From NCBI RefSeq assembly GCF_000613725.1, contig NZ_BAJN01000001.1, positions 124,001 through 188,000 of the forward strand: 64,000 nucleotides of DNA. The letters are read 5' to 3'. The notes under the pieces are model-generated. The model saw only the letters and a list, made by a program, of their open reading frames with translations. It did not search any database and was not told where the DNA came from. The DNA comes from Hoylesella pleuritidis JCM 14110. GTDB taxonomy: Bacteria > Bacteroidota > Bacteroidia > Bacteroidales > Bacteroidaceae. This document shows positions 21,779 through 62,074 of this stretch, piece after piece. Position numbers and translations under genes: made by a program. Within the stretch, counting starts at the first letter, position 1. Each line of letters begins with the position of its first letter.

Positions 21779-24468
21779 TTATTTTAGTAAATAAGTCAAG
21801 ATACCTCTCATTATGTCGTTTCGCACTTTCGGCGATCGGATACACTCGAACGGGAAGGCCATTGTAAAGCATTTATAGTCTGAACCGTCGTAAGCGACAC
21901 CTGCACTCTGCTCGTTCTGGTAGCGCAAAGCGCAATAGGCGGGTGTCAATGGCTCTAAAATATCGGGTGCAATGGCAGCATAATGCTTGTCATTGAGTGC
22001 CTGATAGATTTCAAACTCTTGTTCCATACCTTTTATATAAGGTAGTGTGTCGAGCCGATTCGTACCCGAAAACTTTACTTTCAACACTTCTGCAAGAAAG
22101 CGTTCACCGTTCGTATTTGTCTGATCAGAGCCCAGATAAGCTCCACTCACCATCAGTCGGCCGTGCTTCTGCGTGTAGGCACGCAGTATTTTTTGCATTT
22201 TGGGTGTGAAAGTTTTATAGAACCGCAATGCGCTTGGTGTGAATTTCTCTAATCCCAAGATCAGATCTACACAGGGATAGGTGCCAATCTGCACTTTACC
22301 TGATTCGATGGCTCGGCTCGAACAACTTACGACATTGTAGCGGGCAACACTCGCAATGGCCTCCGTATGTGTAGCAACGTAATCGAAAGTATTGCCCATC
22401 ACGAATCGGCCGGCCATTTCGTCGCCACCGAATCCTAATCCGCCAGGCCCCTCAATACCCATACACGACTTGTCAAAGCATTGCTGTGCACCGGCCCAAC
22501 CGGCTGTAAGACCCTCTGAAACGCCTGCATCTCGGTTAAGATCGAAACCTTGTTCGAACTCCGTATTGATAACGGTGGGACCTGAAAGACGATGAAATCC
22601 ATTGACGACAAGGATTGTTTTTGCCGTATTCGACCGATAAACGGCAGACAAAACCTCTGTCGGGAAACTCTCGCCGCCGTGATTGACGGCCGTAACTTTA
22701 AATCGATAGTGTACACCGGGCTCCAATTCGAGTGTCAGCGACGGCCTTTTCGTTCGCCGACCGTTGTTAAAACCACCTGTTCCAGTGGCCATATAAACAT
22801 TATAGGAAGTGGGGCTGGCTGTCGGTTCTAACGAGTCTTGTACGGCTGTCCAGCTCAATTTGATTTTGTTTTTGCCGACAAACGCGATGGCGAAGTCGGT
22901 CGGTGCCAGCGGTTCAACGGTGTAAGATTGACCGTGTTGGGTCGTGATAAACCGTAGAATGGTTTTATATATGGAGCGGGCCAACGTGAAACGGAAGTTC
23001 GGATCTTGCCCACGCAGCATATCAGGAAAGTTCTGGTGCGACATTGTTTCTAATATGGCGGAAGGTATTTCGGGGTTGCGTGTCTCCGAATAGTTGCGGT
23101 CGAGCAAATCTCTTCGGGCCCAATCATGATAAGTTTGACGAATATCGCGGGTAACATCAGATAAGAGTGCATCAGCGAAATCGCGTGAAATCATGCGCGA
23201 GATATTTGTATTCAGGCGCCCGTCGTTATAGTCGGTCGTGCAGATTGCCAACGATCCGACGAGTGAAGTGCCATTTTCGGCAAAGCCGGCATCGCTATGT
23301 ACGGCCAGAGATAGCTCTAACGGTACGCCTTTTCCCTCTAATGATGGCACGAAAACAGATCCGCCGGCCAACCAGTTCACCATATTCGATCGCGCGTTGA
23401 TGTCGTCTCCATAGTCGTCTTCACCGCCTTTGGTATTATAGACGTTGTAAGGTGCGCCGGCCCATTGGGCGTAATAGCGGGCGCCTTCTAACGAACGGGG
23501 CAGATTGCTGACGTCTCCGCCCCGTTGGATGTTGCCCATTCCGCCGCCAAATCTCACGGCATCAGCTGTTACTACGCCATGTTGAGACGATTTGTTGCTC
23601 AAAACCACTTGGTTATAAGGATTGCAGCCACGGTCGAAATCGAATGTTCCGAGATACACCCATGTGCCTCCGCCCATCTGTTGATTGACTTTGAAGACCG
23701 TCTTTTGGCCTTTGTGGAATATTGTGTATTGTGCGTCCGAAATACTTCCGGCAACCGTTTGGTAGCTCACATACACGGCATAGCGGCCAGCTTCGGGTAT
23801 CTGTGGGCGGTAAACGATTTCACTGGTGTTGCGTTCCTTGGTTGTCGTTTTCGTCATTCGTGCTGTTCCAGCCTCAAAAGGATTCTCTCCGTTGGCGTAA
23901 GCACCGTGTGTTGGGCAAAACCTCGTGTGTTTGTAGATCGCCAAATATCTTTTGCGGTTGTCTCGGTATAGACAGAAGCGTCTGTATTTCCATCATTATC
24001 GACGATGATTTCATTTTTCTGCCAGTCTCGTTCACGTGGTGTGAAAACCACGGCACCGGCATTTTGTAGCATTGGAATCAGATAAGGAACGACGATGGTT
24101 TGTGTAAACAGATCTTCATTGGTGCCGAACAAGTTAGGGCGTTGCCATTCCCATGCTCCGGTTTTGGCGTTGTAAAATCGGCCGTGACTGGCCCATAAAG
24201 CAATGTGTCGATTGTAGAGACCGTGCGTAATGGTGTTGGGACGGGAGACGTTTCGCACCCACGGATCGCCCTTGTATTCTATGTCTCCCCACATCCTATA
24301 TATACCCTGATTATCAGAAGCATCTTTTTGGCTTCTGATTAACGGCTTTTCACCTTGCGAAAAGCCGTTAATCGCAGGGTGAAAAGCCGTTAATCGAAAG
24401 CCCTCTGCATAAGAGCTGAGAATCAGGAAGTTACAAAGTAGTATGAAGCTCCATCTTTTTGTTTGCAT
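21779..24468 (-). CDS. Large secreted amidase-like/golvesin/Fn3 protein (one-base deletion)
   Basis: A signal peptide (to about SSYAEG) is followed by an Amidase_3-like region split by an inserted golvesin-type beta domain (PEAGRYAVYVSY...). The amidase part resumes with LAVHSDAG and PSAILETMSHQNFPD. A fibronectin type III domain (KLSWTAVQD...YRFKVTAVN) and a ~250-residue C-terminal domain follow. Similar Bacteroidota proteins are annotated xanthan lyase or N-acetylmuramoyl-L-alanine amidase. The frame breaks at CC 23904-23905; one extra base gives QHTGAYANGENPFEAG and 896 residues. Its ATG overlaps the acyltransferase stop (TAATG). A 22-bp repeat array lies just after the signal peptide. Confidence 0.78.
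24337..24396. repeat. Three-unit 22-bp palindromic repeat inside coding sequence
   Basis: GATTAACGGCTTTTC (24337-24351) is followed by its reverse complement at 24359-24373 and again at 24381-24395, with cores centred 22 bases apart. Three units equal 66 bases or 22 codons, so the frame is kept. It encodes residues directly after the signal peptide of the amidase-like protein. The same element occurs near 230, at 6.05 kb and, with changes, at 34.8 kb. Confidence 0.75.
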
Positions 24469-28154: not shown

Positions 28155-28231
28155 CATTTATTTATCCTTTCCTTTTAGGTTGTAACTTAGCGGTGAGTTC
28201 GAAATTTCCTTTCCAAACAACTGTCAAAGTC

Positions 28232-28336
28232 GTAACTGAATTATGGCAAGTGTAGTAACGGGGGTACGGTAATAGGAGTAACCGAGTTACGACAATCGTC
28301 GCAACTGAGTTACGGCACAAAGAGTAACGGAGCAGC
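28232..28336. repeat. Five-unit 23-bp palindromic array, GTAAC type
   Basis: GTAAC or GCAAC starts at 28232, 28255, 28278, 28301 and 28324, exactly 23 bases apart. The best units are odd palindromes: GTAACCGAGTTAC at 28278-28290 and GCAACTGAGTTAC at 28301-28313. The spacers between them are not conserved. The array lies in the gap between the convergent GH25 and glycosyltransferase genes. Confidence 0.8.
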
Positions 28337-28481
28337 AATAGAGATCGCTGTCTTGGTGCTGTGAGCATTGATATTTTTGATACTTGAAGCACGATGCCCT
28401 ACGCATTCATAAATTCGTTGGACTTACTTTATCTAACGCGAGTTGGATCAAGCATTTTCTTATACGGTACATCGTTCATCT

Positions 28482-28548
28482 GCCTCCCACTCGTGGAGTA
28501 TAGAGATACCTCACAAGTGAGGCGTAGAGAGCCCTCTCTCGTGGGGTA
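28482..28548. repeat. Three-unit ~24-bp palindromic array, CTC/GAG type
   Basis: Three units share a CCTC..C...GTGAGG-like palindrome centred near 28491, 28515 and 28539, each followed by TAGAGA or TAAAT. The middle unit, CCTCACAAGTGAGG, is a perfect inverted repeat; the others differ but remain partly self-complementary. It shares the gap 28113-28582 with the GTAAC array; nothing else is recognisable in this gap. Confidence 0.65.
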
Positions 28549-28582
28549 AATACTGTCTGAACTTACTTGTTACGCTCCTTCC

Positions 28583-40340: not shown

Positions 40341-40419
40341 AATTAACGGCTAAACATAAGGCGATTAACAATTAAACGAGTGACAATTAACCGTTAGTTA
40401 CACGATGATTAATTGTTAC
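40341..40419. repeat. Four-unit 22-bp palindromic array, TTAAC type
   Basis: Cores are centred at 40348 (TTAACGG), 40370 (TTAACAATTAA), 40392 (TTAACCGTTA) and 40414 (TTAATTGTTA), exactly 22 bases apart. The array lies in the 760-base gap between lysS and degP, after the sigma remnant. Apart from these and the degP promoter I see nothing else in the gap. Confidence 0.75.
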
Positions 40420-40689
40420 TTGCAAGCTGAGAAACAGCTTTTTGCAGATGGGATGAATTTAAATGGAGAAATCTCTGATTATCAACAGATTATAAAATGA
40501 CTGTTTTGTGTGCTTCATCGTTCGGAAAAATATTATAGAATTGACAGCTGACAAACTTGTCAATAGTCGGCATTAAACGAATGTAAAAAGTTGACAAGTA
40601 CTCCATTAAGAGCCGTTAAGATGTTAAATTCGAGTGTTAAAATGGAATAAAGAAATAAGACAGATTGGCAGAAATCCGTTTTTTGCTCT

Positions 40690-45620: not shown

Positions 45621-45726
45621 GCAATACGGGTGAGTCTTGCACGGCCAGCTCCCTTCGAATCCTCCAGGACGGGAACGTAGCAAAGGTAGTTGGTTGTAGC
45701 GGCGCGATGCAAGTAGCTCACCCACC
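45621..45726 (+). ncRNA. ffs: Signal recognition particle 4.5S RNA
   Basis: The core has the universal helix 8 features: CAGG-ACG-GGAA-CGT-AGCA, a GGAA tetraloop on a three-base stem flanked by the CAGG/AGCA symmetric loop. The ends pair as GGGTGAG (45628-45634) with CTCACCC (45717-45723) and CTTGCA with TGCAAG, giving one long hairpin of the short bacterial type. The RNA binds Ffh to target membrane proteins. The exact ends are estimated from the promoter and the stem. Confidence 0.9.
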
Positions 45727-45728
45727 CC

Positions 45729-46632: not shown

Positions 46633-46724
46633 GTTGCTTTGCACAGATGTCGAGACAGACGCAGACTTTTAGGTGTTTTGATGATGCTGGCGGTAAGAGC
46701 GTGTCTCGGGGGCTCTCTTTCTCG

Positions 46725-46830
46725 TTTCCTTAGGGAAGCCTAATACCATCCCTAAGGGTTGGCAGGTGTGTATCCTTAGGGTAGACTGAAGTGTACCCCT
46801 GGGGTAGACCAATGCCTACCCCAGGGGTTG
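46725..46830. repeat. Five-unit 23-bp palindromic array, CCCTAGGG type
   Basis: Units are centred at 46731, 46754, 46777, 46800 and 46823, exactly 23 bases apart: TTCCTTAGGGAA, ATCCCTAAGGGTT, TATCCTTAGGGTA, TACCCCTGGGGTA and TACCCCAGGGGTT. Both arms change together between units, so symmetry is kept. Spacers are unrelated. It lies in the 310-base gap between convergent yaaA and the fimbrillin gene; a 69-codon frame running through it is an artefact. Confidence 0.85.
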
Positions 46831-46942
46831 ATTTCGTATCATTCTCTTTCGAAGACCATATCTTGTCGAAGATAGTTTTGAGAGAATGTCTGTCGCTCCT
46901 TTTAGAGTAACAGGAAACTATGGTTCTTACAAAAGACAAGGA

Positions 46943-51378: not shown

Positions 51379-51590
51379 GTAAAAAGGGTCATACCGATGA
51401 TGTGATGAAACTCCGAGTAATTAAGATTTGAGAGCTCTCCGCCTTTGTAATCCACCGGCTTTACAGCTTGTCCCCGAAGGTTGTTTGTGGCCCGCCATTA
51501 GCAAAAGAAGCATTCTCGGTTTTTCGATTTTATTTGATGAGTATCCCGATCGAATCGATACAACCCTATGTGATCTCCTTATTTCTTATG

Positions 51591-53680: not shown

Positions 53681-54097
53681 TCAAGGCTTCGGTTTGGGTT
53701 TCTTCTTCCCCTGCTTTGCTACGCGGAAGAATTCAACATTCTTCAACTGGCGGAATTCCTGCGTAGGCGTGAAGAGAATCTGTGTCTTCGAGATGCAATC
53801 CACCGGCTTGAAGTCTTCCTCTTTCTCCACAGATTTCGAGGTGAACGTGGGGCGAAATGTGCCCAGCGGACCGGCATCGACGATGAAGCCTTGCGAACAA
53901 AGCTGGCTCAGCACCTTGCGAAACTTGTAAAACACGGCAGCCACGTCGGCATCGCCCACGGTGCTGTCTTCTGCCATCCGTTCGCAGAGTTTCTCGAACG
54001 ATACACGCTGTTTCTGGCAAACAGGGCTTGCCACAAACACTTCCTTGCCTTTCAACGGGCCTACACTCATTTTCCGTTTATTCAACGAATAGTCCAT
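53681..54097 (-). CDS. HU-family (HU-related) DNA-binding protein
   Basis: The 138-residue protein carries an HU-like fold with the dimer helices (SFEKLCERMAEDSTVGDADVAAVFYKF...), the core GPLGTFRPTF strands and a basic Lys/Pro tail (KKKPKPKP). This is the longer, divergent HU-related group common in Bacteroidota. Such proteins bend or coat DNA. Its promoter is a textbook TTTG-N20-TATCTTTG on the minus strand, with a ten-unit 22-bp array directly upstream. Confidence 0.8.
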   Translation of the reverse strand: MDYSLNKRKMSVGPLKGKEVFVASPVCQKQRVSFEKLCERMAEDSTVGDADVAAVFYKFRKVLSQLCSQGFIVDAGPLGTFRPTFTSKSVEKEEDFKPVDCISKTQILFTPTQEFRQLKNVEFFRVAKQGKKKPKPKP

Positions 54098-54181
54098 AAT
54101 GATAAAAATTTAGTTTGTTTACAGACCACGGGGCAACGTTATCTGTACTCTTCGCAGAACCTTCCCCCCAAGTGTCTGCCA

Positions 54182-54213
54182 CAAAGATAACGAAAAGTTT
54201 TTGCTTTTCCAAA
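54182..54213 (-). promoter_or_regulatory. Promoter of the HU-like gene
   Basis: On the minus strand, TTTG (54213-54210), 20 bases, then TATCTTTG (54189-54182): a complete Bacteroidota promoter with a ~79-base leader. The repeat array begins within about six bases of the -33 element. Confidence 0.7.
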
Positions 54214-54218
54214 CAAAT

Positions 54219-54428
54219 GGGAGTACTTTTATTCTGTATGTATAGTACTTTTATTTTAACCCGATACTATCTTTCATAAAAAACGATACTATCTTTCATA
54301 AAAAAACGATACTATCTTTCATAAAAAACGATACTATCTTTCATAAAAAACAATACTATCTTTCCTCAAAAACGATAGTACTTTTTCGTAAAAACGATAG
54401 TACTTTTTTAATGGAACGATAGTACTTT
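54219..54428. repeat. Ten-unit 22-bp palindromic array, GATACTATC type
   Basis: Cores are centred at 54223, 54245, 54267, 54289, 54312, 54334, 54356, 54378, 54400 and 54422: a 22-base period with a single 23. Five central units carry the odd palindrome GATACTATC (one as AATACTATC) followed by TTTC and an A-run. The outer units carry AGTAC (TAGTACTTTT or GATAGTACTTTT). The array lies upstream of the HU-like promoter. The remaining sequence to the HD gene (54429-54692) holds nothing I recognise. Confidence 0.9.
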
Positions 54429-54692
54429 TCTACAAGACGTTGGGATGACTTTTCCTGGATTGTCCGATAATTTTTGTAAATTACTTATTTACAAGGTGTT
54501 AGAAGTTTCCTTTTAATGTCGTTTTTTTGCCGGAAATTCGTCCTTTTTCTATCGCATATTTGTATACTTAATATCGGACTCAAATGATGAAAAGTCTGAC
54601 CGATAGGCAGTGTTGTTTGCTCTTGCAGATGGCCGGACAGGTAAAAATAAACTGAAAGATAGGGGGTAGATTGTGTGGTGCTCCACTCTTGC

Positions 54693-61861: not shown

Positions 61862-61904
61862 CACTCGCAAATTTAAGGAGTAGTCCTTGTTTGTAATGAA
61901 TTGA

Positions 61905-61980
61905 GCGCCCTTAGCTCAGCTGGTAGAGCAACTGACTCTTAATCAGTGGGTCTAGGGTTCGAGTCCCTAAGGGCGCACCA
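61905..61980 (+). tRNA. tRNA-Lys (anticodon CTT), copy 1
   Basis: The 76-base cloverleaf has acceptor GCGCCCT/AGGGCGC, discriminator A and encoded CCA. The anticodon loop is CTCTTAA on the stem ACTGA/TCAGT, and the T loop is TTCGAGT. Confidence 0.98.
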
Positions 61981-61994
61981 ATTCGTTTTGAAGA

Positions 61995-62070
61995 GCGCCC
62001 TTAGCTCAGCTGGTAGAGCAACTGACTCTTAATCAGTGGGTCTAGGGTTCGAGTCCCTAAGGGCGCACCA
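61995..62070 (+). tRNA. tRNA-Lys (anticodon CTT), copy 2
   Basis: Identical in all 76 bases to the copy 14 bases upstream, including the encoded CCA. Both share one promoter and one terminator, so they are a tandem duplication in one transcript. Confidence 0.98.
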
Positions 62071-62074
62071 ATGA

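Follow-up and report, generated by a model that had tools for sequence, protein, structure and literature searches.

Phased 22-bp repeat arrays accompany HU-HIG genes in Hoylesella pleuritidis and related genomes and may form functional pairs with them

The stretch of DNA that we analysed (the window, 64,000 nucleotides; G000:C49:124001-188000 of a 2.56 Mb assembly in 49 contigs, with G000 denoting the window's own genome) carries on its minus strand a gene for a 138-residue HU-HIG protein (53681-54097; Pfam PF18291), the presumed binder of a repeat array upstream of it. Between gene and array lie a 5' leader (54098-54181, minus strand) and a Bacteroidetes-type promoter (54182-54213, minus strand), whose -7 element TATCTTTG (54189-54182) is separated by N20 from the -33 element TTTG (54213-54210). 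The array (54219-54429, plus strand) stands beside this promoter and consists of ten 22-bp units starting at 54219, 54241, 54263, 54285, 54308, 54330, 54352, 54374, 54396, and 54418; the spacing is 22 throughout, apart from a single step of 23 between 54285 and 54308. TRF detects the array independently (period 22, score 209), and its lag-22 identity is 0.785 across 130 bp, compared with a maximum of 0.49 when the same 500 bp was shuffled 1000 times under a first-order Markov model. An earlier note on this DNA had described ten 22-bp units with AGTAC and a related core, set against a TTTG-N20-TATCTTTG promoter; our analysis bears this out, with one 23-bp step, the promoter on the minus strand, and a gap of 8 bases from the -33 TTTG to the first core (AGTAC, 54222-54226).

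The units share the frame AAAA-N8/9-CTTTT around cores of four kinds: two AGTAC, four GATACTATC, one AATACTATC, and three GATAGTAC. GTAC-type units lie on the outside and five GATACTATC/AATACTATC units in the center. The units are contiguous, with the central ones near-identical and no unique spacers, which argues against a CRISPR. The four nearest scanned genes encode HU-HIG, HD-domain, GH20, and UbiA proteins, with no replication initiator among them by Pfam; the HD-domain gene is the upstream neighbor of the locus and does not look like a lipoprotein gene. Elsewhere in the window, two tandem tRNA genes lie inside a perfect 90-bp direct repeat (61903-62072), and Rfam identifies a Bacteroidales-1 (6S-like) RNA (51381-51565, minus strand) and a Bacteroidales small SRP RNA (45621-45727, plus strand).

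The window protein matches PF18291 at 68.6 bits (cut-off 26.2, E 6.6e-19), its sole Pfam family at E<=0.001; it has no transposase domain. The product had been called HU-like, and it does belong to an HU-type DNA-binding family, HU-HIG rather than canonical HU. A phmmer search of the PDB returned no match at E<=1, and AlphaFold gave a poor model from 8 sequences (mean pLDDT 39.7). Two paralogues in the same genome are 86% (contig C26) and 52% (C32) identical to it. The C26 paralogue (L071) adjoins frames that resemble a conjugative element, presumably encoding topoisomerase-like and helicase-like proteins. We found no phage link for the group of close relatives that we call family I, since viral contigs yielded neither an exact tandem pair of the window word nor a confirmed relative of the family.

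A scan of named genomes recovered seven loci whose proteins are 70-85% identical to the window HU-HIG: two in Alloprevotella tannerae, two in Prevotella dentasini, and one each in P. micans, P. brunnea, and P. aurantiaca. The window word recurs at both A. tannerae loci and in P. micans, and the word at the P. aurantiaca locus is of GATGGAAC type. Some GTACGTAC units can be made out by eye at the P. dentasini loci, yet both fail the array test, as does the P. brunnea locus, where 307 bp was examined. The promoter and array keep an identical register at five family-I loci in three species (the window, C26, the A. tannerae pair, and P. micans), with TTTA standing in place of the -33 element at C26. 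In all 12 family-I genes listed, a -7-type site, CAAANNTA, starts 86-90 bases away from the end of the sequence that adjoins the start codon. The leader is partly conserved in 13 family-I sequences and contains a short possible hairpin; this hairpin looked conserved, but its covariation is not clearly above that of shuffles (55/500).

The same relatives bear on how the window array was built. At the A. tannerae and P. micans loci, unit three belongs to the GATATTAGC/AATATTAGC or GATATTAGC/AATATTGGC type, and in the window the GATACTATC run begins at this very position. Given that unit three is already of this type in both species, the central GATACTATC block looks like a local amplification of a conserved third unit, instead of the merger of two half-arrays that had been suggested.

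Matches to PF18291 number 18 in the window's own genome and are many in 19 relatives. We tested 92 loci for arrays: 17 from the own genome (L120 was omitted because it and L123 are two halves of one split locus; L121, L122, and L123 were tallied separately as fragments or other), 68 from relatives (28 + 40, a part of the PF18291 matches listed for them), and the 7 named-genome loci. The shuffle test compared the 500 bp upstream, and at most 500 bp downstream, with 200 Markov shuffles at any period of 14-40. The threshold test required an identity of 0.58 over 66 bp at lag 20-24 and dropped five of the 92 loci having less than 400 bp upstream (L078, L131, L144, L174, and L185). As background, we used 326 ordinary genes from home-made gene calls in 464 kb of the own genome.

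Arrays are strongly enriched at HU-HIG genes. By the threshold test, 10 of 12 in the own genome have an array with a 20-24-bp period within 500 bp upstream, whereas among the 326 ordinary genes 24 do (p 1.6e-9 by Fisher's test; 9/11 and p 1.3e-8 without the window locus); the two HU-HIG genes lacking one are on C43 and C35. Downstream arrays are found by the same test at 37 of the 326 ordinary genes. Upstream sequence of 400 bp or more was available for 69 HU-HIG loci; an array lies upstream in 39 of them and downstream in 5, or on either side in 44, near-identical copies being counted separately; among HU-size proteins the figure is 2 of 15, namely L119 (a plain HU) and L183 (a truncated HU-HIG). 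Collapsing copies at least 85% identical within one genome left 59 HU-HIG loci, and here the shuffle test (p<=0.01, lag 20-24) detects arrays on either side of 42, upstream in 38, and at one of 14 HU-size proteins, again L119.

The association reaches beyond the genus. An order-wide search found an HU-HIG match at E<=1e-15 in 30 of 198 genomes, and we tested the single best locus from each of the 29 other genomes, all from other genera and two within the same family. Among the 26 loci with testable upstream sequence, 19 have an array, 11 upstream and 8 downstream (p<=0.01, lag 20-24, with the ordinary-gene background drawn from the own genome only). Downstream arrays may begin right after the stop codon. 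One genome, G005, has HU-HIG genes yet no array across 60 kb, and we saw no tracking of array density with HU-HIG gene number within the genus.

By eye, HU-HIG genes frequently lie downstream of lipoprotein-like genes (L301-L308 in the relative G003; L109, L113, and L117 in the own genome); eight of these neighbors match no Pfam family. In G003, PF18291 matches 30 proteins, which include ordinary HU, and near-identical HU-HIG copies lie at several places. Its repeated modules (L301-L308) keep the HU-HIG gene and a block about 2 kb upstream with little match between the two, as if a surface gene varied there.

Arrays of this kind are also dispersed through the genome. In our own-genome sample of 464 kb (the window and 20 further stretches), 38 arrays have lag 22 or 23, compared with 6 at lags outside 21-24; the corresponding numbers in 400 kb of G003 are 26 and 4. 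Nine sampled genomes with HU-HIG together hold 78 arrays in about 1284 kb, a sample drawn mostly from G000 and G003, with the other seven contributing 14 in about 420 kb. Ten genomes without an HU-HIG match above 45 bits, only two of them from the same genus, hold 3 in about 380 kb. Of the non-edge arrays in the own genome, 41 of 46 are intergenic: 23 lie between tandem, 13 between convergent, and 5 between divergent genes, where intergenic bases amount to 41.9, 16.1, and 20.5 kb, respectively.

Several dispersed arrays fall in the window itself. One with a 23-bp period and the word TACCCCTGGGGTA (46721-46831, plus strand) lies between convergent genes and shares its word with the array upstream of an HU-HIG gene at C49:200297. 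Another with a 23-bp period, word GTAACGGAGTTACG (28229-28330, plus strand), has no HU-HIG partner among the words tested, and a third (28481-28552, minus strand) has the CCACTCGTGG word of an HU-HIG fragment locus at C42:24514. The tandem-period scan adds three 22-bp arrays on the plus strand: one with the abundant word ATTAACGGTTAAT (176-264), one of ATTAACGG type (24311-24399), and one of ATTAACGGTTAAT type (40342-40430). Arrays of the ATTAACGGTTAAT family occur genome-wide in G000, at these three places and at L202:9297 and L193:13955. It is the commonest dispersed word here, with 49 profile matches in 464 kb at a low threshold, and it matches no HU-HIG upstream word tested. The plain HU gene L119 alone has it upstream, possibly by chance; because the word is so abundant, we excluded L119 from the word tests.

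We built profiles of 45 HU-HIG upstream arrays, three tandem units each, and searched 19 genome samples (855 word-genome pairs) with the source arrays themselves excluded. Dispersed matches appear in 14 of 40 pairs in the word's own genome, in 10 of the 28 pairs whose genome encodes an HU-HIG related at 50% identity or more, and in 1 of 787 others. The 14 correspond to 16 distinct places, one of them weak (L202, 31 bits); the 10 correspond to six places only, mostly in G003, that are reused by related words. In G008 some upstream arrays have period 21, as do two dispersed arrays with their words, and the TACCCC word has period 23 both upstream of HU-HIG and where dispersed. Up to 2 kb on each side of 17 dispersed sites, we found nothing that matches HU-HIG coding sequence. 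Two words were checked against whole genomes. That of L274 occurs in its own genome (at four places besides its own, among those listed) and in none of 11 others. That of L281 recurs at one other place in its own genome and is also present in G003, where one match lies in the array upstream of a family-I HU-HIG gene, with none in 10 others. Arrays with HU-HIG words adjoin unrelated genes as well. The earlier note had held that similar arrays next to unrelated genes only would speak against it; this is not what we observe, as HU-HIG genes have them too.

Across 200 genomes of the genus, the word goes with the gene. The window word is present as tandem pairs in 7 genomes (a reversed control pattern in none) and an orthologue of the window HU-HIG at E<=1e-25 in 6; five have both, two (G281 and G344) have arrays only, one (G319) has the gene only, and 192 have neither. 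Fisher's test gives p 4.9e-8, or 1.2e-6 without the own genome, for presence rather than abundance and with kinship ignored, and this co-occurrence may reflect common descent. The orthologue match in G214 is partial. All five genomes with both have window-word arrays listed away from the gene. The orthologue in G223 has a different promoter word, CGTACCTCCG, from which dispersed CGTACCTCCG arrays were expected, though this expectation was not recorded ahead. Indeed, there are 33 CGTACCTCCG tandem pairs in G223, at no fewer than eight places away from the gene among the matches listed, and 33 in G003 (seen earlier in the analysis), compared with 0 in the 198 other genomes.

The unit word varies between paralogues (for example ATGACGTCAT, CACCATGGTG, CTTAGGGTACCTAAG, TACCCCTGGGGTA, and AACAAACTAGCCTAGTTTGTT). 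Words match at 12 or more of 16 positions in 16/16 pairs of proteins at least 80% identical, in 61% of 28 pairs at 60-80%, and in about 2% of 606 pairs at 20-30%; close proteins thus have words in common and distant ones mostly not, a pattern that common descent alone could explain. We compared the dyad symmetry of 53 arrays, related ones included, with column shuffles; it is higher than in the shuffles for 31 at p<=0.05 and for 21 at p<=0.01; for the window word it is not significant (p 0.465). We considered a rule of one protein, one word, and dropped it as too strict, because the promoter words of orthologues in G223 (CGTACCTCCG), G272 (GTACGTAC), and G319 (GTATATAC) differ from that of the window and because G003 has dispersed CGTACCTCCG arrays while the words upstream of its two family-I genes are both not exactly CGTACCTCCG. 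Family-I proteins instead seem tied to a frame, AAAA-N8/10-TTTT per 22 bp, within which the core can change, and several cores may persist in one genome, sometimes adjacent within one composite array. Two composite arrays (L068:6830-7040 and L069:6594-6760) have many words in one 22-bp frame, and parts of them resemble, by eye, inverted copies of one another.

Our preferred reading, which we hold with modest confidence and on sequence comparisons, is that HU-HIG proteins work in functional pairs with 22-bp arrays. The spacing of two helical turns, the dyad-symmetric words, and the A/T tracts lead us to propose a dimeric, DNA-bending binder of the HU superfamily. A dimer would occupy a single site per unit, and successive dimers, placed on one face of the DNA, would build a multimeric bent complex along the array. 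At its own gene, such a complex would sit upstream of the -33 element and tune the promoter, whether by activation or repression. Matching arrays elsewhere in the genome lie mostly in intergenic DNA, with fewer between divergent genes; on these, the complex could organize or insulate the chromosome, also downstream of genes or at their ends. As paralogue words diverged, several largely separate pairs would have arisen per genome. The earlier note had suggested cooperative binding along one helix face, perhaps as feedback by the HU-like protein itself; the phasing that recurs at HU-HIG genes, the shared register, and the co-occurrence of word and orthologue agree with this. Promoter feedback cannot be the whole story, however, because arrays also lie beside unrelated genes and are downstream in 8 of the 26 loci from other genera.

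A less probable account is that the arrays spread as non-autonomous repeats, like the REP sequences mobilized by RAYT proteins, with HU-HIG as a recombination or transposition accessory and any physiological role secondary. RAYT/REP systems are reported, in the parts of two papers available to us, to show gene-adjacent cognate repeats, dispersed copies, and a correlation in presence (PMC2817692, PMC3686654), and the arrays on either side of HU-HIG genes and the near-identical copies in G003 fit such a history. In contrast, the window protein has PF18291 alone and no transposase domain, no BrickBuilt-type terminal repeat lies near the window array, and transposition needs no strict 22-bp phasing. 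The duplicated G003 blocks are accompanied by the second homologous block about 2 kb upstream, so their duplication may be by recombination. Spread of the RAYT/REP kind accounts well for the dispersal and is compatible with binding.

We consider it quite unlikely that some other DNA-binding factor reads the arrays and that HU-HIG genes merely share repeat-rich adhesin or lipoprotein islands with them. Several HU-HIG genes do lie downstream of lipoprotein-looking genes by eye, and the array at 46721-46831, which adjoins one of them, has an HU-HIG word even though the 2 kb around it contains no HU-HIG. But the words match HU-HIG genes of the same genome (14/40 compared with 1/787), the CGTACCTCCG result in G223 points the same way, and the upstream neighbor of the window locus is the HD-domain gene. 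Neutral minisatellites born of slippage in AT-rich intergenic DNA are a very improbable explanation: the intergenic location (41/46) and the local homogenization of some arrays are what slippage would give, but the period is piled at 22-23 (38 arrays compared with 6 in the 464 kb) and stays constant while the words differ, the words have dyad symmetry, and the arrays are enriched at HU-HIG genes. Tandem palindromic words acting in RNA, as hairpins that end or stabilize transcripts, are hardly credible, for although dispersed arrays avoid divergent intergenic space, the window array sits upstream of its promoter, the 22-bp phasing goes unexplained, and by reading of the sequence the window word yields no repeated hairpin in one orientation.

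If the pairing of HU-HIG proteins with phased arrays is right, it would supply a function and an address code for a family with many members per genome and explain many of the 22-bp intergenic arrays in these genomes. It would also provide a natural set of HU-type proteins with differing sequence specificity, making it testable how HU-fold proteins acquire such specificity and whether an architectural protein can take the place of a transposase in keeping up a family of repeats. More tentatively, Bacteroidales may possess a diversifying family of HU-superfamily proteins that gives a single genome many orthogonal address systems, each with a phased operator and dispersed arrays, which would pattern the chromosome and spread in the manner of RAYT/REP without a transposase; we did not find such a system described in the literature searched. 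Our search of the open literature found neither a described role for HU-HIG nor any paper that links its genes to arrays as partners, the nearest being the BrickBuilt and RAYT/REP papers. A 2017 study by Burroughs and others is said to treat the clades of the HU superfamily and may mention these repeats.

The arrangement resembles several known systems in part. In iteron-controlled replicons, direct repeats of about 18-22 bp stand in phase beside the gene for their binding protein, which is autoregulated; the window array differs in having no adjoining Rep gene, and dispersed arrays exist here. IHF and HU are architectural proteins of the HU superfamily that bend DNA, and their known sites are single or few. 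The A/T-tract frame around a core and the HU-superfamily protein are common to both cases, whereas private phased arrays by the presumed binder's own gene are particular to this one. Porphyromonas gingivalis belongs to the same order as the window genome. Its BrickBuilt MITE forms dispersed intergenic tandem arrays of a 23-nt unit, and one copy, BrickBuilt_14, adjoins a PF00216 DNA-binding gene, according to the sections of that report available to us (PMC4596501). The arrays here are likewise intergenic and dispersed, with a unit of 22 at the window locus and 23 in a minority. BrickBuilt is, however, a single family of repeats that has a leader, a tail, and inverted repeats at its termini, and for which those sections describe no paired protein or word set (PMC4596501); GAGACCTTTGCA-type terminal repeats with up to 2 mismatches occur 7 times in the window, where 5.1 would be expected, and the 600 bp around the array contains none of them.

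The likeness to RAYT (TnpA-REP) and REP-BIME systems goes further. In the parts of the reports available to us, cognate extragenic palindromic repeats flank the gene, copies are dispersed, gene presence tracks repeat abundance, and there are several classes per genus (PMC2817692, PMC3686654). The protein is HU-HIG here and an IS200/IS605-type transposase there, with no REP-associated tyrosine transposase in the window protein, and the HU-HIG array units run head-to-tail at 20-24 bp. Like RAYT genes as portrayed in those parts, HU-HIG genes have adjoining repeats and dispersed cognate copies, and the presence of the gene goes with the presence of its repeats, kinship being ignored.
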